Origin: Maribacter sedimenticola
GTDB lineage: Bacteria; Bacteroidota; Bacteroidia; Flavobacteriales; Flavobacteriaceae
Assembly: GCF_900188415.1 (NCBI RefSeq)
Contig: NZ_FZNV01000002.1
Location: 725,339-789,338 of the forward strand
Reading direction: 5' to 3'
DNA length: 64,000 nucleotides
Below, piece by piece: positions 9,582 through 19,972 of this stretch (position 1 is the first letter of the stretch; each line of letters opens with the position of its first letter). A model generated the notes under the pieces. It ran no database searches and was not told the origin of the DNA. It saw nothing but the letters and a program-made list of their open reading frames with translations. A program made the position numbers and the translations under genes.

Positions 9582-10028
9582 TTATGCTTCTTGAAGATCT
9601 CGTTTAGATTTTCTATATAAGTAATTTGGAAAAATACTTCTTTTGGCAAATCTGTTTAATTTGTTGGCATTGATCATCTTTTGGAAGATAAGTTTTGTTA
9701 CCCCAAAATATTCGTATGTAGCACCATCAACAAAAGTAACTTCTAAAACAAGACCGTTATGTTGAAAATCTGCAATGCCAGAAGTAATGCTTTCTTCGTA
9801 AGCTTCTTTATTGGCTTCTTTGGTTTCTGGAGCAATACTTGCTAGAAAGTGGTAGCCGTCAATAATTCTGCGACTTTGCACTTCTGCCTCTTCCCTCTTT
9901 TCATCACCCTCTTGAAATTTATCTGGATGCCATTCTTTAACCAAGTTTCTGTACTTGGTTTTTAAGGCTTTAAGTTCAATTTCCTTCTCTACCCCAAAAA
10001 GTTTTTTGTATTCGTTGATACGTTTCAT
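9582..10028 (-). CDS. J-domain / KTSC-domain protein
   Basis: 148 residues in two parts. Residues about 8-70 form a J-domain with the HPD signature inside VKEWHPDKFQEG, which in DnaJ proteins stimulates DnaK ATPase. Residues about 90-140 resemble the KTSC domain (VTFVDGATYEYFGVTKLIF, then NKLNRFAKRSIFPNYLYRK), a small domain often linked to nucleic-acid enzymes. It starts 96 bases after the stop of the giant AAA ATPase gene, so it could be a distal operon member or have its own promoter. It is probably a DnaK co-chaperone with an unknown client. Confidence 0.8.
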   Translation of the reverse strand: MKRINEYKKLFGVEKEIELKALKTKYRNLVKEWHPDKFQEGDEKREEAEVQSRRIIDGYHFLASIAPETKEANKEAYEESITSGIADFQHNGLVLEVTFVDGATYEYFGVTKLIFQKMINANKLNRFAKRSIFPNYLYRKSKRDLQEA

Positions 10029-10124: not shown

Positions 10125-13100
10125 CTAATCTTTTTTAAGTCCGTTTTGTAAGACCGACTTAATACCGGCAAGATTTTCTGAAAACTCCATCATTTGCGAT
10201 AAAACCTGTGCCATTTCATTAGCATTGCCAAAACCTTTGATCTTATTATTCTTTACAAATTGCTCTTTTATGGCAGACCATCTTTCATTTTCATCTGTAG
10301 AAAGCTGTCCAATTAATTCGTTGTACTTTAATAAATTAGCCTCAGCTGACCCGGTAAGTGTCTGTGCTTCGTTTTCATAATGAGATCGTAGTAAGGTATT
10401 TAACTCCTTATCGTTCATTATTGGAACAATTTGGGCAACAAGTTTGTTCATATCCCTATATGAACCTTGTAGTTTAAAAGCAGGCTCGGTTCGGTATTCA
10501 TCTTGCATAGCCGCGCTTTTAATATAGGTGGCATTAACCTTTAAGAGCACATCTCTAACCTTAAGAACCTTTTCCAATACTTTTTTATATTCCTCAACCT
10601 CTTGACTGGAATGGTTTCCTAATAACTGACCTTCATCCGTTTTAGATTCTATTTGGTTGACCAAGGTATATACATCTTCAAACTCCTTGCTTGCCAATTG
10701 TTGTAAAATGGGGTTTGCAGTGAGCGAGTTTTCAATTAAACTCAATCTGAACAGATGTTCGGTTTCTCCGATGATATCACCAAGGTTATAGATATCTGCA
10801 CGGTTTGCCAACATATCTGGAATCTTAAATTTCTCTCCACTTTCGGTATAAGGGTTACCCGCCATAATCACACAGAACTTTTTGCCCCTTAAATCATAAG
10901 TTTTAGGTTCATTGTCATAAACCCCTTCTATTTTACGGGTACCATCAGATAAGGAAATAAATTTCTGAAGAAACTCAGGATTACAATGTTGAATGTCATC
11001 TAAATATAACATAACATTGTTTCCCATTTCAAAAGCCAAATTCAGCTTTTTTAGTTCTTCCCTTGACGCACTATTATTTGCAGATGCGGGGTCTACGTTG
11101 GTGACTTCATGACCAATTGCCGGACCGTTAATTTTCACGAATATTAAGCCCAATCTGTTGGCTATATATTCCATTAACGTGGTTTTTCCGTAACCAGGTG
11201 GAGATATTAAAAGCAACATTCCCATTCTATCGGTACGTTTATTGGCGCCAATCGTACCTAGCTGTTTTGCCAGGTTATTACCGAAAATGGGGAAATACAC
11301 TTGGTCGATCAACTTATTACGCACAAAAGAAGTAAGCACCCTAGGTTTAAACTCTTCTAGTTTTAAATCGTTTTTAAGTTGCTCCGTTATTTCTAATTTG
11401 GTCTTTTTAAATTTTTGAAATGCTGGTACTTCACTAATTACGAACAATCTCATTCTAGAAATAAAATCATGGTAATTAAAGATATACGTACCATTGTTTA
11501 TGGTGGTATGAGATCCTCTTAACTCTTTAATGGTTTCGTTTGGTGAAACAGATTTAATTTTTGAGGCAGATTCATCTCTGAACAATAAAGCCCCAACAAT
11601 TTCATGTGTATACCTTTTAAGGTCTATTCCTTGGCTTTCTTTTTCTTTGGTTTTTAAAAATGCAGCCACCCATTGTTTAGCTAAACGTACTTTGTCCTCT
11701 AAACTAACAGTATCTTCAATACTCTTTTTAAATTTTAAATCTGCCTGTTGTGATTTTAAGAATTTTATAAAGTCTTCCTTCAATTGTATTGCCACACTGC
11801 TGTAAACAAATTCAGAATCAGATTTAAGTTCTTCAAATATATAGGAAGCAATATCTTCACTCAGTAATGGGTCATAAAGCGCAGTATTTCCTCCAAATTG
11901 AGCTACTAAACCCTGTATTTTTTCAACGACGGAAGCATATTCATTTGATGTTGGAAAGTACTGCAGAACCTCACCTGCTGTTTTTAGACTTTTATCCAAC
12001 TCGTTTTTCACCTCTTCATTTAAACTGTTCCAGAAAAATTGGGCGTATCCTCTTATTTCTGGTCGGTAAGTAAGCAAACCTAATTCATGATGTTTGTGAA
12101 CCAATAGCTTTAATAATCTTGATGCATCTACATCATGAACACCTTTTACATAACCTTCAGAATAGTCATTTCTACTCTGTTCTTGAACTACCTTCAATAA
12201 CTCATCGTCATTTAGCGATAGTAACTCATCTTCGCTAAAGTTGGAAAACAATTTATAGGCTAAGTAGGCACCTCTATAGATTTCATCGGTTTCAGATACA
12301 TACTCTTGGTTCCATAAATGTCTATTGTTTACAAACTCCTCATTATCCAATTGTTTGTAGAAATCGGTCCCCGTTAAATGATAATTTAGTTCATTGTCAT
12401 GAAAAACAATGGTTAAATCCAATTGCTGCTTGTTAACACCAAATTTGTGCTTTCCTAACCTAATGACACTGTCGCCATCTTCATAAAGATCAAGCTTATC
12501 CTTTAATTTTCTAAGTGCATCTTCTCGGGCAGTTTTAAGTTGGGTCTCTATCTCTTCAGCTTTTCCACTATCATCTAACTCTTGCAGTTGGGTAATGATG
12601 TCGCGAAGCTTATTGATCATTAGGTCCGATGCAAAATACCCGTTGATTTCAACCGCAGTATTAAAACTCTGTGCCTTCTTTTGAACTCCTTTTAAAATAC
12701 GCTTAGAAGCATTGGTCAATGCGCTTGACTTCTTATTTCGTTTTTCAATCAAGGAATTTTTTCGGGCATCAAAAGCAGCATATACCTCTTCTCTTTTTTC
12801 AATGATGATTTCAATAAATTCTTCAAAATCCGTGAATTTGCCCTCAAGCTCCTCGAGTTGAATAGATGTTTTGGTTTGATATTCATCGCACTTCTCAGGA
12901 GTGGTTGCCATGTCAATATAATTGATGATACTTTGATCAATCAACTTTAATTGTGCGGCAAATTCTGCCTTTGCCTCAGATATGCCCAAAGAATTTCTTT
13001 TGTTCTTTAAAGCCGCCTTTAGCTCATTTATCGTGGAAAAAATCAACGATATATCATCTATTATTTTGGTGGAATGTGCAGTATCCTCTATCTCTAAATT

Positions 13101-15014
13101 TGAAACAATATCAATCAACATTTCAAGATCGGTACTGATTTCATTGATTTCTTCTTCCTTTTTCTTGGCTTCTATTACCTTTTCAACGGTATCTATAAAA
13201 CTCTTTTTTTCTTCTAAAGCTTTATGGTAAGGTTGTAAGGCATTCGGATTCAATAAAAACTGTACGCAGCGCTCAGATATTTTTTTAGTTTGAGCTTCAA
13301 TTTCCTCTTCTAGTGATTTAAGAAATTCCAGGTCAATATATCTAACCTCTTTTAGCGAAATGACTTCACCCCTAGTGGATCGTAAACGCGTTAAAAGTGC
13401 TACGAATTCATCAATACTTTTAAAAGATGTACTCTTAATTTTATTGAATAGTTCCGATGAGTTTTTTTGAATTTCCTTAGATTGATTTTGAGCGTTTTTA
13501 CGAAGCTGTACAACCTTCTCAAATTCATCTATAGCGGCATTGGACGCTTTATTGATTTCCTCTATAGGAACATTAAGCTGATGCGTTTCCGGTTCTGGCA
13601 ACCAGTAATATGCATCTATAATATCTTTTGAAAACTTGGCGATATCACTGTAGAGACCCGCATAGTTATCATTTTTGTTCAATAAGGTAATTAAGCTGTT
13701 TACTTCAGCCATTGCCCGCACGATGTCCTTATTGCCAATTTTGTACAACAAAGTATCTTCATGTTGCGATGGCATATAATCACCTTTCAAATAAGGAGTT
13801 TGCCAAATTTGTACTACGTGGTGTTTGGTCTGCTCCTGCTCTGTCTTAAAATAGCATAGTTCACCATTTTCTAAAATGGTAAATCCGTTACAAATTATTG
13901 GTGTTTTTATAACTTGACTAATGATGTTGAAGGACATAAGATTATAGAGTCCTTCATTAGCTGCATAAAACACGTAAAGAAAATCTTCACCGTTGGGCGA
14001 TACAATGCGTTGCTGAAATTTTACATTCGGTATAGCATTGTCAAAAATGTGATATTCTCCGGTTTGTAAATAATATCCGGTTGGGAAAATGATTCCTTGA
14101 TCGTCGGGAAGAAGAATACAGGCATCTTTTACAGATTCTATTTTTTGTACCTCTTTCATTTTATCGTTAAAGACAAAATAACGAGGCGACTCTTGAAATG
14201 GTTTTATTTCTAGAACCAACAAGTTTCCTAAATCTCCAAAACGATATTGACCATCATCTAAAGTCTGGTCTACATACTCAACAGGTTCATCAAAAATACC
14301 TTTGCCTTCTTCGGTATTATCTTCAATTTTTATAGTTAGGTCACCGCCAATGGTTTCAACAAATACACGATCTTTAATAGAAACATGTGAGTGCACACCA
14401 TAGCGGTGCATGTCTCTACTTGCCTCTTGCCACTTAAATTCTTGTTGAACCGGAAATTTATATTCATGTTCACTTCTGTTGTCAACATATTTTAAAGTAT
14501 TGTTGACCAATAACCATTTAAAGGTTTTTATATCTGTAGGGCTATCGCTTAAACGAAAGACCATATGTAGATAATTACCAATGATGGCAAAATTGGAGAA
14601 TATAGTATTTCTGTAATACTTGTACAGATTGGTGAAATCTGTTTTAAAAGTATCATCCTCTAAAAGACCAAGGTCTATTGCCTTAAAGCTATTATCCTCA
14701 AAGAGATAACAACTAAATACATCTTTAATGTTGATGTCCGTCCTTAGCCCAAAATGAACATTATAACCAAACAGACACGTATTACCAAAAGAAACAATAT
14801 CCCGTGCAATACAGTTGTTCTCCGTGTTGATGCGGTCATTAGCAATAAGCTTGGTCTCTAAGGAACCAAAAACTGTTTTTCTGTCATTGTTAAGGTCAAC
14901 TAACTTGTTCTGTAACAGCTCTTTTTGCTTCTGTAATCTATTTTTGATAACATCATATGTGCCACCGTCCAATACATGCTCTTCCGTAGTGTCTGTTTGG
15001 GTATGCTCTGCCAT
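10125..15014 (-). CDS. Giant AAA ATPase with N-terminal propeller-like region and coiled coils ('DNA repair ATPase' family)
   Basis: 1629 residues. Residues about 55-440 are beta-rich with repeated strand/turn patterns (FGYNVHFGLRTDI, YKFPVQQEF, GTYIF-like units) suggestive of a beta-propeller. About 440-870 are long charged coiled coils. About 870-1240 hold a mixed region, followed by one AAA+ module near 1250-1420 with Walker A PPGYGKTT (about 1275), Walker B MLYLDDIQH (about 1336) and a sensor-like VIMAGNPYT. Databases call this family DNA repair ATPase, but its position 58 bases after a flotillin gene and behind PspA suggests membrane-stress remodelling, perhaps acting on PspA as Vps4 acts on ESCRT-III. 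That role is inference. Confidence 0.85.
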   Translation of the reverse strand: MAEHTQTDTTEEHVLDGGTYDVIKNRLQKQKELLQNKLVDLNNDRKTVFGSLETKLIANDRINTENNCIARDIVSFGNTCLFGYNVHFGLRTDINIKDVFSCYLFEDNSFKAIDLGLLEDDTFKTDFTNLYKYYRNTIFSNFAIIGNYLHMVFRLSDSPTDIKTFKWLLVNNTLKYVDNRSEHEYKFPVQQEFKWQEASRDMHRYGVHSHVSIKDRVFVETIGGDLTIKIEDNTEEGKGIFDEPVEYVDQTLDDGQYRFGDLGNLLVLEIKPFQESPRYFVFNDKMKEVQKIESVKDACILLPDDQGIIFPTGYYLQTGEYHIFDNAIPNVKFQQRIVSPNGEDFLYVFYAANEGLYNLMSFNIISQVIKTPIICNGFTILENGELCYFKTEQEQTKHHVVQIWQTPYLKGDYMPSQHEDTLLYKIGNKDIVRAMAEVNSLITLLNKNDNYAGLYSDIAKFSKDIIDAYYWLPEPETHQLNVPIEEINKASNAAIDEFEKVVQLRKNAQNQSKEIQKNSSELFNKIKSTSFKSIDEFVALLTRLRSTRGEVISLKEVRYIDLEFLKSLEEEIEAQTKKISERCVQFLLNPNALQPYHKALEEKKSFIDTVEKVIEAKKKEEEINEISTDLEMLIDIVSNLEIEDTAHSTKIIDDISLIFSTINELKAALKNKRNSLGISEAKAEFAAQLKLIDQSIINYIDMATTPEKCDEYQTKTSIQLEELEGKFTDFEEFIEIIIEKREEVYAAFDARKNSLIEKRNKKSSALTNASKRILKGVQKKAQSFNTAVEINGYFASDLMINKLRDIITQLQELDDSGKAEEIETQLKTAREDALRKLKDKLDLYEDGDSVIRLGKHKFGVNKQQLDLTIVFHDNELNYHLTGTDFYKQLDNEEFVNNRHLWNQEYVSETDEIYRGAYLAYKLFSNFSEDELLSLNDDELLKVVQEQSRNDYSEGYVKGVHDVDASRLLKLLVHKHHELGLLTYRPEIRGYAQFFWNSLNEEVKNELDKSLKTAGEVLQYFPTSNEYASVVEKIQGLVAQFGGNTALYDPLLSEDIASYIFEELKSDSEFVYSSVAIQLKEDFIKFLKSQQADLKFKKSIEDTVSLEDKVRLAKQWVAAFLKTKEKESQGIDLKRYTHEIVGALLFRDESASKIKSVSPNETIKELRGSHTTINNGTYIFNYHDFISRMRLFVISEVPAFQKFKKTKLEITEQLKNDLKLEEFKPRVLTSFVRNKLIDQVYFPIFGNNLAKQLGTIGANKRTDRMGMLLLISPPGYGKTTLMEYIANRLGLIFVKINGPAIGHEVTNVDPASANNSASREELKKLNLAFEMGNNVMLYLDDIQHCNPEFLQKFISLSDGTRKIEGVYDNEPKTYDLRGKKFCVIMAGNPYTESGEKFKIPDMLANRADIYNLGDIIGETEHLFRLSLIENSLTANPILQQLASKEFEDVYTLVNQIESKTDEGQLLGNHSSQEVEEYKKVLEKVLKVRDVLLKVNATYIKSAAMQDEYRTEPAFKLQGSYRDMNKLVAQIVPIMNDKELNTLLRSHYENEAQTLTGSAEANLLKYNELIGQLSTDENERWSAIKEQFVKNNKIKGFGNANEMAQVLSQMMEFSENLAGIKSVLQNGLKKD

Positions 15015-15072
15015 AAAAATTCTTAGGCTTTATATTACATTATTAATTTAGTTGAAGTAATAAGCTTTGGTG

Positions 15073-17139
15073 TTAACGCAATTTCTTATCACTCATTCCT
15101 AAACCTTTGGCAAGGTTGAATAAATTGCTGAACAAGGTTTGCTCATCATTATCGCTGGACTTAGATTTTAGGTCCATCAATAAATTTGCAATGGTTAAAT
15201 TCTTAAGATCATCTGAAGAAATACCATATTTATCAGCAAATTCTTTCACCTTTTCCAAAAGGTTGCCCTTTACGTCATCACTACCTAAAATAGCATCTTT
15301 TACATCTTGAATGTTGGTACTGTTAGCTACGAGCCTGTCATAACCTTTACCTTTGGTAATTTGCCCGATAATCTGGTCAAAGAACATTGTTTCACCACCA
15401 ACGATATCAATTTTGGCAGCTTTCAATGCATCTCCAATAACTTGTGCTTGAGCATCGGCAATATCTTTCTGGATATTAATTTGAGCCAGGTCAATTTGTA
15501 ATTCTTTGTCTAAACGCAGCTTGAACTCTTCATGCTCTTTACCAACACCATCTAATTTCTTCATGGCATTCGCTTTTTCTTCTATACCGGCAGCATCTGC
15601 TAACGCTTTCTCTTTAATTACATCTGCTTCCGCTAAACCATCTTTACGTTTTGCTTCCGCTTTGGCCTCAATACCTGCAGCCTCTGCTTTTGCCTTTTTC
15701 TCAATGATAAGCGCCTGTACAACACCTTCACGCTCATAGGCATCTGCTTTGGCATGCATTACTTGTGCTTCGGACATACCAACGGTAGCTTCCTCTTTAG
15801 CTTGAGCTTCAGCCAAAATCTTACGTGCTTCGGCTTCTTTCTCACTAGCTTCTTTATGTGCTAGTGCTTCAATATTGATTTCCTCCGCTTTTTGCTTGGC
15901 CGCTTCTTTTTGAGCTTCTGCCGCTTTGATTGTTTTGATCAAATCTTCTTGTGCAATAGCCTCTGCAATGGTAATCTTAACTTGTTTTTCACGATCTGCA
16001 GTCTTGAAAGCCTCTATGTCTTTCATGTTCTCCTGCTCTTCCACTACTCCTTTTTCTAGGGTAACACGATCACGAATGACATCTTGAATGTTCTTCTTTT
16101 CTATTTCTACTACCTTTTCTTTTTCAATTTGCGCAAGTGTAACAACTCGCTCTCTTTCCGTAGCCTCTAATAAACGGTCTTTTTCAACTCTTTCGGTTTC
16201 AACAGCATCTGTACGTTGTTTGTTTTTTAACGCTACTATGATTTGTCGCTCCATATTCTCTTCAGCAACCTTCACCTTTTCCTGTGTTGCAATACGTGCG
16301 GTTTCAGACTTTAAACGCTCTTCTTCGGCTACTTTTAAAGTTTCTGCTTCTTCGCGAGACTTTATGTTAGAAATTTCTCTTTTTTGTTGCTCCTCTTTTT
16401 CCGCTAATTGCTTGTCCAGCTCAAGAATAGCCTCGCGAGCTTCAACATCTTGTTTGCGGATTATTTTCTCCTCATCGCGCTTAATAAGGTTCGCTTTAAT
16501 GTTTTGTGCAGCGGTTAGATCGGTAATTTTTTTGATACCTTCAGCATCTAAAATATTATCGGCCTTTAAATGGGCAACAGCAGTTTGTTCCAAGTAATCA
16601 ATGGCACAATCTTCTAAAGTATAGCCGTTTAGGTCAATACCAATAATATCAACAATTTCATCTCTAAACTCCCTACGGGCTTCATATAATTGAATAAAAT
16701 CGAATTTTTTACCCACGGTTTTTAAAGCTTCCGAGAATTTGGCCTCAAAAAGTTCTTCAAGCGTTTCTTGTCTAGAGGCTCTTTGTACACCAATAGTCTG
16801 TGCTACCTTTTTAATAAGGTCAACCTCGTTGTTTACTCTAACAAAGAACGCCACTTTAATATCTGCACGCATATTATCTTTACAGATAAGACCTTCTGTA
16901 GCCAGCCTTTCTATTTGAATTTTCTTTACCGAGATATCCATTACCTCTACACGGTGAAATACAGGAACCACATAAAGACCTTTATCGGTGGCTACCTTTG
17001 TGCCACCAAAACCAGTTCTTACCAAGGCTTGACCCTGATGAACCTTTTTGTAGAACATGGCAATAATTGCAAAATAAACGATGATAAGGAAAAGAAGAAC
17101 TCCTAGACCTATACCAATAATTGAAAAGATGGATTCCAT
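15073..17139 (-). CDS. floA: Flotillin / SPFH (Band 7) family protein
   Basis: 688 residues. Residues 1-30 are a hydrophobic anchor (ending YFAIIAMFYKK), about 30-210 an SPFH/Band 7 domain (GQALVRTGFGGTKVATDKGLYVVPVFHRVEVMD), and about 215-560 a very long Ala/Glu/Lys coiled coil with the EA-rich repeats typical of flotillins. The C-terminal about 110 residues contain a compact region. It is longer than common bacterial flotillins. Flotillins oligomerise on membranes and organise microdomains. The gene follows the NfeD/YqiJ-like gene by 14 bases. E. coli yqiK (flotillin) and yqiJ form a comparable pair. The symbol is given by family. Confidence 0.92.
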   Translation of the reverse strand: MESIFSIIGIGLGVLLFLIIVYFAIIAMFYKKVHQGQALVRTGFGGTKVATDKGLYVVPVFHRVEVMDISVKKIQIERLATEGLICKDNMRADIKVAFFVRVNNEVDLIKKVAQTIGVQRASRQETLEELFEAKFSEALKTVGKKFDFIQLYEARREFRDEIVDIIGIDLNGYTLEDCAIDYLEQTAVAHLKADNILDAEGIKKITDLTAAQNIKANLIKRDEEKIIRKQDVEAREAILELDKQLAEKEEQQKREISNIKSREEAETLKVAEEERLKSETARIATQEKVKVAEENMERQIIVALKNKQRTDAVETERVEKDRLLEATERERVVTLAQIEKEKVVEIEKKNIQDVIRDRVTLEKGVVEEQENMKDIEAFKTADREKQVKITIAEAIAQEDLIKTIKAAEAQKEAAKQKAEEINIEALAHKEASEKEAEARKILAEAQAKEEATVGMSEAQVMHAKADAYEREGVVQALIIEKKAKAEAAGIEAKAEAKRKDGLAEADVIKEKALADAAGIEEKANAMKKLDGVGKEHEEFKLRLDKELQIDLAQINIQKDIADAQAQVIGDALKAAKIDIVGGETMFFDQIIGQITKGKGYDRLVANSTNIQDVKDAILGSDDVKGNLLEKVKEFADKYGISSDDLKNLTIANLLMDLKSKSSDNDEQTLFSNLFNLAKGLGMSDKKLR

Positions 17140-17153
17140 AAATGATTTAAGAT

Positions 17154-17858
17154 TTATTGATTATAAGATTGAACTAAAAAGTGTGTGTGATCCGCAGATC
17201 TTTTAATAATAAGTACAGAACTGCCATAGGACAAAGGTTTACGGTCTAACGATTTTACGTAAATAGAATGACTGTTACCATCTGCTTTTACTTCTGCATT
17301 ACCCAGTTTATCTTCACTAATACTGGATAACATAATTGCCTGTCTCCCCAAAAAATCCACTGGGGCGTCACCATCCTTATTCAATTGCTTAAAAAATCCT
17401 TTAAACGGAGTGGTAAGAATTTTATTGATAAACAAAGCAGGAATAAGAACCGCAATCATTATGATAAAACCAATGTAGTTTTCATAGGTACCTGTAAGTG
17501 TTGTAAGCATGGTAGTAGCAAACCACCAAACGAAAATCCAGAAGGTAAAGGTGAACATGAACGGTAAGCCAACAAAGTTGAAATAAATGAGAAATATTTG
17601 CCACTTTTTTAAGGGTTTACGTTTCTTACCTATAACATCGTCTTTATTGACTTCTGCATTTGAAATGTCCTCAAAATCTAGATTTCCGCCTTCAATACCG
17701 GCATCAAAATCTATATCTGCATCTACCTCTATATCTACATCAAGGTCATAATCAAGACCACCGATCATGGTAATGATCCAGTAGATAATTAGAAGTATCA
17801 ACAGTACGGTCAGCGTAATGTTTACTTCAGAAAATAATATGTCGGTTAGTTGATTCAA
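17154..17858 (-). CDS. Membrane protein with C-terminal OB-fold-like domain (YqiJ/NfeD-like, DUF1449)
   Basis: 234 residues. Segments resembling membrane helices lie at about 14-33, 88-118 and 126-148, and a soluble beta-rich domain follows at 165-234 (DFLGRQAIMLSSIS, GSSVLIIKRSADHTHFLVQ), as in NfeD/YqiJ proteins that partner flotillins. Between the first and second helices is an unusual Asp-rich stretch (about 35-75) with repeats such as DYDLDVDIEVDADIDFD. The next gene, flotillin, starts 14 bases downstream and the PspA gene ends 4 bases upstream. The probable role is to seat the flotillin assembly in the inner membrane. Confidence 0.85.
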   Translation of the reverse strand: MNQLTDILFSEVNITLTVLLILLIIYWIITMIGGLDYDLDVDIEVDADIDFDAGIEGGNLDFEDISNAEVNKDDVIGKKRKPLKKWQIFLIYFNFVGLPFMFTFTFWIFVWWFATTMLTTLTGTYENYIGFIIMIAVLIPALFINKILTTPFKGFFKQLNKDGDAPVDFLGRQAIMLSSISEDKLGNAEVKADGNSHSIYVKSLDRKPLSYGSSVLIIKRSADHTHFLVQSYNQ

Positions 17859-17862
17859 GTTC

Positions 17863-18576
17863 TTATTTTTTGGATTTTGTGAACCCTAATTGTTCTTTTA
17901 ATTTTTGAAGTTCGTCATCTGCAGCAGCTTCTGTGGTATCTGCAGCTTTATCTAGTTCTTCATCAATAGATTTACTAGCATTGGCAATATCACCATACGC
18001 TTCGGCCAAGGCCTCTTCTTGCGCTATTTTTTCTTTCATACGCTCAAGCATAGAAACCGTACCACTACTGTCCAGCTCTGCCATTTGCTTGTTTAAATTT
18101 TTGGTAGCATTACTTACTTTAACACGTGCTTTTAACGTTTTAAGTTCATTTTCCCAATTATTTATATTCGCCTTTAACGCTTCAACGTTGCCTTGCATTT
18201 GACTTACATTGGCTTCGAACTTTTCAGTTTCTACCTTTGTAGCCTCTAGTTGTTTCTCATTGGTCTCTTTTTGAATTAAAGCTTCTTTTGCCAACCTGTC
18301 CGCCTCATTAACATTTAATTCTTTCTTCTGTGCCTTTTTAAGTATTATGATTGCTTTATCTTGATATTCTTTAGCTTTGTTTTTAAAGATATCCTGGTCA
18401 TTTTTTGAACGAATTGCCAAGGCTTTGACTTGGGCCAAGGCTTCTAGACTTTTTTCCAAATCTAGTTTCATATCCCTTATTCCCTGCTCCGTCATTTTTA
18501 TGGGATCTTCCATTTTGTCTATTGCTGAATTTGTTTCAGCTTCTCCAATTTTAAATAGTCTTTTAAATATATTCAT
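17863..18576 (-). CDS. pspA: PspA/IM30 family membrane-stress protein
   Basis: 237 residues, almost wholly helical and charged, opening with the family's amphipathic helix MNIFKRLFKIGEAETN and the conserved line DPIKMTEQGIRDMKLDLEKS. The central ALAQVKALAIRSK and long coiled coil match PspA/Vipp1, bacterial relatives of ESCRT-III that bind and repair damaged inner membrane. The tail after about 205 is acidic and Ala-rich. It sits 12 bases after the Tir-like chaperone gene and 4 before the YqiJ-like gene. No pspF-type sigma-54 regulator is nearby; control is more likely by the divergent XRE regulator. Confidence 0.92.
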   Translation of the reverse strand: MNIFKRLFKIGEAETNSAIDKMEDPIKMTEQGIRDMKLDLEKSLEALAQVKALAIRSKNDQDIFKNKAKEYQDKAIIILKKAQKKELNVNEADRLAKEALIQKETNEKQLEATKVETEKFEANVSQMQGNVEALKANINNWENELKTLKARVKVSNATKNLNKQMAELDSSGTVSMLERMKEKIAQEEALAEAYGDIANASKSIDEELDKAADTTEAAADDELQKLKEQLGFTKSKK

Positions 18577-18588
18577 GATGTTATTATT

Positions 18589-18984
18589 TTAATATTTAGA
18601 AAATTCAATTATTTGTTCAGAGTATTCACTCATTAAAAGGCTTAAAGAATTTAAACTAGCTTCAAATTCGTTTAAATCCATATTTTCAATTTGAAGTGTA
18701 TCCCTAAAAATAACTTTGCTTGCAGATTCATCTAAGACAAAAGCACCATGTATGATGTCACGGTTCTTTTGAAGTAAGCTTTTAAAAACCTTTTCAGATT
18801 GATTATGAACGGAAAAAATAAATTGTTCCATAATCAATATTGGAGGGGAAACTCCCAAAATCAAATTTTTGATTCCGAAATCTTCTTTTTCCACGACCAT
18901 GATACCATCTAGCCTATTCTCTTTAACGATGCTAAAATTTAGTTCTAGAAGATAATCTCTAGTTATATTATAGTGATTTTTCAT
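18589..18984 (-). CDS. CesT/Tir-chaperone-like (YbjN-like) small protein, first gene of the psp operon
   Basis: 131 residues, no signal peptide. The pattern is an N-terminal helix (NITRDYLLEL), strands with a short acidic turn (GIMVVEKEDFGIKNLILGV), then a C-terminal helix carrying RDTLQIENMDLNEFEASLNSL. This resembles proteins that databases name molecular chaperone Tir or YbjN in Bacteroidota, and the type III secretion chaperone fold. It leads the operon, 12 bases before PspA, and may act as an adaptor or anti-aggregation partner for PspA. The fold assignment is from memory of the family and not verified. Confidence 0.7.
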   Translation of the reverse strand: MKNHYNITRDYLLELNFSIVKENRLDGIMVVEKEDFGIKNLILGVSPPILIMEQFIFSVHNQSEKVFKSLLQKNRDIIHGAFVLDESASKVIFRDTLQIENMDLNEFEASLNSLSLLMSEYSEQIIEFSKY

Positions 18985-19145
18985 ATTGTTGGTTTTGTAG
19001 GTGGTTTCTTTATTATCAATAATACAAAATTTAATTGGTGTCCTTTATGAAATTGACAGTAGGAACGCTAAAACGTAAATTAAGACGATGAACATAATAT
19101 CGATTTTAAATAATGTTAATATTGGCTCAAAATAATAGCAATTAA

Positions 19146-19216
19146 AATATTATTGCTAATATTGTTAGACAAATATAATACAATATTTGTAAATTGCAAA
19201 TTATATTAGCAATATT
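19146..19216. promoter_or_regulatory. Divergent promoter/operator region between psp operon and XRE regulator
   Basis: At 19169-19190 lies a 22-base inverted repeat with perfect 8-base arms (ACAAATAT / ATATTTGT). On the minus strand it contains TATATTTG (19177-19170), preceded after 19 bases by TTTG (19200-19197), a full match to the Bacteroidota promoter pattern. On the plus strand it gives AATATTTG (19182-19189) with ATTG at 19161-19164, a near match. The 11-mer ATTGCTAATAT occurs at 19152-19162 and inverted at 19203-19213, flanking the palindrome almost symmetrically. A further inverted repeat, AATATTA-N4-TAATATT, covers 19146-19163. These are likely regulator-binding sites. All is read directly; binding is inferred. 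Confidence 0.65.
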
Positions 19217-19972
19217 ATGTCGTATTTTGGAAAAAACATTCGGAAGATTAGAAGTTTAAAAAGTTTGAGTCAACAGGCATTCGCCGAGCTTTTCGACTTA
19301 AAGAGAGGTACCTTAGGCGCATACGAAGAAGGTAGAAGTGAGCCTAAATTGGAAACACTGATAAAAATTGCTAATTATTTTAGCATACCTATAGATGATT
19401 TATTAACATCAGAGTTAACCGTTAATAATTTATTGAAGTTTAAAGGTAATCTTACCATAGAGCAAAATATTGGTGAGCAAGAATATTTTACTAAAGTACC
19501 CTGTATAACTACTTTAAATTTAAATGATTATGTAAAATATGCCGATAAAGAATCTTTTGTTCAAGAATTACCCTATTTAACCCTACCAATTAATTTAGAT
19601 AAAAAATTTAGGGCTTTTACAGTTCAAAATTTGGAAATGAGTAAAAATGACTTGGGTATGTTTCCCAAGGATATAGTAATTGGTGAACTTACACCCTTAG
19701 AAGTGCATTCCAAACTAAATAATGGTACATTAGTTTTTATTGTAACGCAAGATGATATTATTTTAAGACGATTATTTATTAGTAGTGGATCAATAGTACT
19801 AAGGGCGGATCATAAGAATGTTGAAGATATCGTACTTACATTAAAAGATATAAAGGAGATATGGCGTGTTAGGTATGTGTTTTATCATAGAATTCCAGAA
19901 ACAAACTTTAGTCTTGAGGAGAAATTGGAACAACTGGAAAAGGATTTTGATATATTGAAAAATAATAAATAA
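19217..19972 (+). CDS. XRE-family regulator with S24-like (LexA/CI-type) C-terminal domain lacking catalytic residues
   Basis: 251 residues. Residues about 5-65 are an XRE helix-turn-helix (IRKIRSLKSLSQQAFAELF, then GAYEEGRSEPKLETLIKIA). Residues about 115-225 follow the LexA/CI peptidase S24 layout (FRAFTVQNLEM, then GTLVFIV...IILRRLF...IVLRADH). The position of the GDSM serine motif reads NLEM and the lysine of TLKRL-type motifs is Arg, so self-cleavage is unlikely. A short coiled-coil tail ends the protein. It is divergent from the psp/flotillin operon and shares its promoter region, so it probably represses that operon and itself, with an unknown signal. Confidence 0.85.
   Translation: MSYFGKNIRKIRSLKSLSQQAFAELFDLKRGTLGAYEEGRSEPKLETLIKIANYFSIPIDDLLTSELTVNNLLKFKGNLTIEQNIGEQEYFTKVPCITTLNLNDYVKYADKESFVQELPYLTLPINLDKKFRAFTVQNLEMSKNDLGMFPKDIVIGELTPLEVHSKLNNGTLVFIVTQDDIILRRLFISSGSIVLRADHKNVEDIVLTLKDIKEIWRVRYVFYHRIPETNFSLEEKLEQLEKDFDILKNNK

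Follow-up and report, generated by a model that had tools for sequence, protein, structure and literature searches.

The CesT/Tir-PspA-YqiJ-flotillin-AAA operon of Maribacter sedimenticola: two candidate modules and a conserved promoter region

Gene content of the operon

The locus described here lies in a 64,000-nucleotide stretch of the Maribacter sedimenticola genome (contig NZ_FZNV01000002.1, positions 725,339 to 789,338), which is referred to as the window and whose own numbering is used throughout. Five genes on its reverse strand form a putative operon, encoding in the order of reading a CesT/Tir-like protein, PspA, a YqiJ-like membrane protein, a flotillin and a giant AAA protein, and a sixth gene, for a regulator of the XRE type, diverges from them.

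10125..15014, minus strand: giant AAA protein, 1629 aa, with DUF3686 (residues 34-470), DUF7902 (591-674) and an AAA motor (about 1256-1420)
15073..17139, minus strand: flotillin-type protein, 688 aa, with a Band_7 domain
17154..17858, minus strand: membrane protein like YqiJ/YuaF (NfeD2), 234 aa, started by TTG, with weak likeness to YuaF and with DUF1449 as the name of its Hymenobacter counterpart
17863..18576, minus strand: PspA/IM30 protein, 237 aa, with a PspA_IM30 match
18589..18984, minus strand: CesT/Tir-like protein, 131 aa, with a CesT_Tir_1 match
19217..19972, plus strand: divergent XRE regulator, 251 aa, with a helix-turn-helix (HTH) and a C-terminal domain that is weakly S24/LexA-like

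The gene order, the tight spacing (gaps of 58, 14, 4 and 12 bases from the AAA gene to that of CesT/Tir) and the divergent regulator sharing one promoter region of 232 bases, all of which had been noticed in a first-pass annotation of the sequence, are confirmed from the coordinates. Pfam matches were obtained for the AAA protein (DUF3686 574 bits, DUF7902 87, AAA 33), the CesT/Tir protein (CesT_Tir_1, 181 bits) and PspA (PspA_IM30, 148 bits, the only such match in the M. sedimenticola genome); the flotillin matches Band_7 with 50.7 bits, and the regulator matches HTH_3 with 47.8 bits and S24 weakly (E 0.0026). Neither Pfam nor NCBIfam has a match to the YqiJ-like protein, which takes its label from weak likeness to the solved domain of YuaF (2k14, E 0.47) and from DUF1449, the name of the gene at the same position on a Hymenobacter plasmid. 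A gene for a protein with DnaJ and KTSC domains (9582-10028) lies on the same strand just downstream of the AAA gene.

This gene set is not new, since an operon class that combines CesT/Tir-PspA with band-7/flotillin, AAA and YqiJ proteins is described by Ravi et al. (2024; PMC11237479); the suggestion in the first-pass annotation that such PspA neighbourhoods may be partly described was correct. Two features of the class in that account, a CesT/Tir gene adjoining pspA and a Band-7/flotillin gene in the operon, are present here. The AAA protein of the class is given an N-terminal beta-propeller and a coiled coil; DUF3686, the AAA motor and long modelled helices (residues 600-1119) are found here. 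The YqiJ/YuaF-type membrane protein of the class would correspond to the weakly matching protein above. The main text of Ravi et al. contains neither “XRE” nor “S24”, in contrast to the divergent XRE gene with a weak S24 domain at this locus. What is added to the class is an operator, a micropeptide gene and the genome-wide absence of PspA beside an intact core. In operons of the SPFH2-NfeD2 kind, E. coli yqiK-yqiJ and B. subtilis yuaG-yuaF among them, a flotillin gene also stands beside a YqiJ/YuaF-type gene; the passages on these operons in PMC2636767 mention no ATPase, whereas the 1629-aa AAA protein is a constant third member here. The classical psp operon (pspF-pspABC) is switched by PspF, in contrast to the XRE-type regulator of this locus, and the Pfam matches to the six genes include no PspF-type NtrC activator, no PspB and no PspC.

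Distribution of the flotillin core and of the PspA module

The occurrence of the operon was followed in 81 loci, namely the window and 80 others, the best among 327 stretches of species genomes that matched; because only these best 80 were taken, close kin are over-represented. Among these, the AAA proteins nearest to that of the window are from Maribacter. The short loci L001-L021 were left out before counting. Upstream of the AAA gene, 77 loci are readable (L067, L079, L091 and L098 have less than 1 kb there), and in all 77 the flotillin and YqiJ genes precede the AAA gene on the same strand. The PspA module was counted in 76 loci, as the contig of L083 starts at YqiJ. The identical order with a divergent XRE gene occurs in 68 of these 76, so the arrangement is not due to chance, and the expectation that the order would be kept across relatives rather than scattered is borne out.

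The pairing of flotillin and AAA extends beyond this sample. Among 100 relatives, 23 have the AAA protein, and exactly these 23 also have this flotillin (scoring was limited to 11 flotillin candidates per genome). Twelve of 13 further AAA loci have flotillin, the remaining one being at a contig end. In a plasmid collection, 12 records carry the AAA gene, and they are the same as the 12 best of 317 flotillin-bearing records; in the 11 that were read (a second Proteus record was left out), flotillin adjoins AAA every time, upstream of it and on the same strand. With the window's profiles, a YqiJ-like gene was found in 7 and PspA in 2 of these 11 stretches, the latter being the Hymenobacter plasmid with the full set and the Pseudomonas plasmid pQBR103, whose YjfI-PspA set is a different one. 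Of the 317 flotillin-like records, 229 are named Escherichia, and those listed cover the query in part at 29-35% identity. Wider sampling within the phylum gave DUF3686 in 10 of 395 genomes. Its neighbours in Pseudomonadota, Actinomycetota and Deinococcota were read in 11 loci. A consistent association of the AAA gene with DNA-repair genes, which had been named beforehand as fatal to a membrane role, was not seen: flotillin is the partner, and no repair gene recurs beside AAA in the annotated stretches examined. In four Aquimarina loci (L048, L051, L065, L086), an extra short flotillin-like open reading frame (ORF) lies ahead of the full flotillin gene.

The XRE-CesT-PspA module behaves differently from the core. 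It is complete in 68 of the 76 loci and is missing as a block in eight (L050, L056, L061, L074, L078, L082, L092, L099). Whole-genome profile searches covered 14 genomes, comprising those of the eight block-less loci, L083 and five full-operon controls. PspA_IM30 was found in seven of them: each of the five controls has it, and so do L074 and L099, where it lies away from the core. In the other six block-less flavobacterial genomes (that of L092 appears to equal G054, 99% complete) and in the partial L083 assembly, neither PspA_IM30 nor CesT_Tir_1 was found genome-wide; Snf7 was found in 0 of the 14 genomes, with a profile that matched just one of its own 14 control genomes, below the cut-off. 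Ravi et al. (PMC11237479) suggest that operons without PspA rely on one whose gene is located elsewhere, which is not borne out in these six genomes because the genome-wide search found none there. The claim that the five genes make up a single self-contained machine is likewise not supported, as YqiJ-flotillin-AAA stands in them with no such match. By eye, TGTAACA was read upstream of YqiJ in all six.

The module also occurs apart from the core. PspA is above the cut-off in 26 of the 100 relatives, all 26 of which have CesT_Tir_1 (27 of 100 in total), and four of the 26 carry CesT-PspA without AAA. In these four dyads, XRE diverges from CesT in L121, L122 and L123 and was not seen in L120. 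The dyads of L121 and L122 are followed by an LD-carboxypeptidase (Peptidase_S66) gene, and that of L123 by DUF4178 and a spermine synthase-type gene, as in the second operon group presented by Ravi et al. At one place, recorded as both L103 and L128, an XRE gene lies between two CesT_Tir_1 genes, beside PspA and away from the core. In L127, one PspA gene adjoins YqiJ-flotillin-AAA and a second, about 10 kb from it, adjoins CesT.

Promoter, regulator and micropeptide

The promoter region of the operon holds a micropeptide gene and operator sites beyond what the first-pass annotation described. The sites are as follows.

19194..19212, minus strand: operator O1, an inverted repeat TTGCTAAT-N3-ATTTGCAA, overlapping the -33 box
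19197-19200, minus strand: -33 box TTTG, inside O1
19170..19177, minus strand: -7 promoter box TATATTTG, of the TAnnTTTG type, 19 bases after the -33 TTTG
19155..19168, minus strand: second operator-like site O2, from the alignment, just past the -7 box
19125..19141, minus strand: third operator-like site O3, from the alignment
19045..19095, minus strand: micropeptide gene MFIVLIYVLAFLLSIS, ATG to TAA, 16 hydrophobic aa, between the promoter and CesT
19016..19029, minus strand: leader element TTTTGTAWTATTRA, conserved, 3' of the micropeptide gene

A TTTG box with a TAnnTTTG-type box is the promoter form of Bacteroidota. O1 is conserved in 76 of 79 distinct intergenic regions (L025 and L029 are identical and were counted once) and in none of the shuffled ones; it is missing in L093, L094 and L137. 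The two boxes are 19 bases apart in 73 of 78 O1-holding regions. Across the whole genome, the O1 pattern has one exact match, the others having two mismatches and being no more numerous than those of a reversed-pattern control. A single genomic copy over the promoter fits a local repressor that covers its own promoter. Neither O1 nor TAnnTTTG occurs in the 420 bases scanned upstream of YqiJ in the six PspA-less loci, where the core is perhaps driven by a different sigma factor. An Rfam scan of the promoter returned nothing above chance level, the match to psRNA6 having 11 bits where the cut-off is 60.

The C-terminal domain of the regulator is weakly LexA-like. In an alignment of 88 rows (L103 and L128 both included), the place of the lysine of the cleavage pair is taken by arginine in 77, the window among them. 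Against a LexA reference sequence, the register of the serine is ambiguous (E140 in 73 rows or T/S142 in 70), and L043 is the one row that keeps Ser142 with Lys184.

Hydrophobic ORFs of 12-27 codons, sought by fixed rules, are present in 58 of the 79 distinct regions, as compared with a mean of 4.0 and a maximum of 7 in shuffles and with 10 on the reverse strand; the rules leave out L086, which has a similar ORF with an early Glu. When position is used instead (stop codon 55-75 bases ahead of CesT), hydrophobic ORFs make up 48 of 82 versus 2.55 in shuffles. Conservative-substitution scores per changed codon are 2.69 in Maribacter/Zobellia (10 distinct sequences), 1.39 in Aquimarina (21) and 2.02 in Leeuwenhoekiella (5), none of 500 column shuffles scoring as high in any group; these groups were picked after the ORFs had been seen, and column shuffling leaves relatedness in. 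The other two frames give negative scores in all three groups, and the second position of the codons is invariant in Maribacter. Because the substitutions keep the type of amino acid, the micropeptide gene is very probably translated. No report of it was found among the papers listed from the open-licence literature on phage shock/PspA leader peptides or small proteins. The leader element TTTTGTAWTATTRA, in a short form, is present in 58 of the 79 distinct regions (mean 0.7 in shuffles, 0 on the reverse strand) and is kept in L097 and L101, both of which are without the micropeptide. In L124, where CesT is at a contig end, a 68-aa hydrophobic ORF lies between XRE and CesT and is perhaps a longer form of the micropeptide.

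The micropeptide might be a working part of the switch, its synthesis or membrane insertion being sensed so that leader translation would read the state of the membrane on top of the XRE control. This is a tentative idea and rather unlikely. Within it, the product may be a leader peptide that stalls, or a very small membrane protein by which CesT-PspA is recruited.

The AAA motor and its candidate partners

The AAA motor is intact, its Walker A (SPPGYGKT), Walker B (DDIQH), GNPYT and DML.NR.D motifs being letter-invariant in 102 rows. On the clade of the motor, Vps4 or MoxR, the sequence, Foldseek and VIA-align searches disagree; in VIA-align, the first ten rows are the MoxR motors NorQ/CbbQ. 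MoxR motors act with VWA partner proteins, as NorQ does with NorD, whereas the Pfam scan gave no VWA domain in the operon proteins. Vps4 has a MIT domain and an ESCRT-III-type partner; here no MIT domain was found in the AAA protein (Pfam scan, E 0.1), and a partner of the ESCRT-III superfamily (PspA or Snf7) is not obligatory, as seen from the PspA-less genomes. Residues 600-1119, the modelled helices, have no solved counterpart at E 0.001 or better, the best matches being weak spectrin-like helices.

The reading favoured here, with a probability of about 0.55, is that the locus consists of two modules, in which flotillin or its clients are the partner of the AAA protein, PspA is an inducible add-on and XRE is the switch. 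The core would be a flotillin (SPFH) scaffold with its YqiJ/NfeD2 membrane partner and the large ATPase, which would use ATP to remodel the scaffold or the client proteins gathered by it. The add-on would be a CesT/Tir-PspA pair protecting the membrane, switched by the divergent XRE repressor on operators that cover the promoter. Most of the Bacteroidota seen have this add-on ahead of the core, and both would be induced jointly. The gene neighbourhoods suggest that the large motor protein belongs with flotillin, not with PspA. A membrane role for the AAA protein stands, because in the neighbourhoods examined it pairs with flotillin and not with DNA-repair genes; the operon as a whole would presumably act in membrane repair.

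Several points weigh against this reading. The link between the AAA protein and its putative substrate, flotillin or its clients, is one of gene neighbourhood, and the XRE protein is taken to be a repressor from the positions of its sites. The gap between flotillin and AAA ranges from 58 to 2455 bases in relatives (median 475, more than 500 in 35 of 76), and a small called ORF lies between them in 29 of 76, so the two need not be co-transcribed everywhere. PspA is present in 22 of the 23 Bacteroidota genomes with AAA, and the six PspA-less genomes, which form one clade among PspA-bearing kin in an AAA tree built by a quick method, may thus reflect one loss, a single evolutionary event. The model of the motor is of middling confidence (pLDDT 70), Foldseek puts RuvB first with Vps4 about level with NorQ, and the sequence searches match short stretches around the P-loop, in p97-like proteins and in RuvB.

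It has been proposed, in the first-pass annotation, that the AAA protein takes apart PspA polymers as Vps4 does those of ESCRT-III, recycling them after membrane repair. This is improbable in view of the intact AAA protein in six genomes that are without any PspA_IM30, CesT_Tir_1 or Snf7 match, the 9 of 11 plasmid loci in whose stretches, as read, the profile from the window finds no PspA, the CesT-PspA dyads without AAA, the lack of a MIT domain in Pfam and the better alignment of MoxR motors. A shared client is somewhat easier to envisage: flotillin would recruit both PspA and AAA, and the motor would act on a scaffold made of both PspA and flotillin wherever the two occur. The order of the genes, constant in 68 of 76 loci, agrees with it, as does a Bacillus subtilis study (PMC8581546) on a link at the membrane between PspA and an SPFH protein, but the core persists without PspA and CesT-PspA exists without the core, and this explanation is considered doubtful.

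Two further explanations lie outside membrane biology. DUF3686 is described in Pfam as an ATPase involved in DNA repair and several records are named DNA repair ATPase, to which the RuvB hit of Foldseek can be added; however, the constant neighbour is a membrane scaffold gene, no repair partner recurs and the term DUF3686 was not found in the open-licence literature, where no relevant paper joining flotillin with “DNA repair ATPase” or with MoxR was found either. This explanation was rejected as extremely improbable, given the constancy of flotillin and the lack of a recurrent repair gene. An anti-phage defence operon would agree with the patchy presence (23 of 100 relatives) and with the occurrence on plasmid-collection records. 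The PADLOC 2023 models, however, gave weak P-loop/coiled-coil matches alone for the five operon proteins (best E 0.0014) and generic HTH matches for the regulator; as no model matched beyond weak partial hits, defence was also set aside as highly unlikely.

If the two-module reading is right, the DUF3686 family, known as “DNA repair ATPase”, would be shifted from PspA and DNA repair to flotillin scaffolds. To our knowledge, ATP-dependent partners of such scaffolds are little known apart from HflKC-FtsH. The genomes with the core only, being without PspA, would serve as a clean natural control for the function of the AAA motor. The operator and the micropeptide offer handles on the switching of PspA operons in Bacteroidota, and sensing through the micropeptide, if true, would be a new kind of input to the PspA response.
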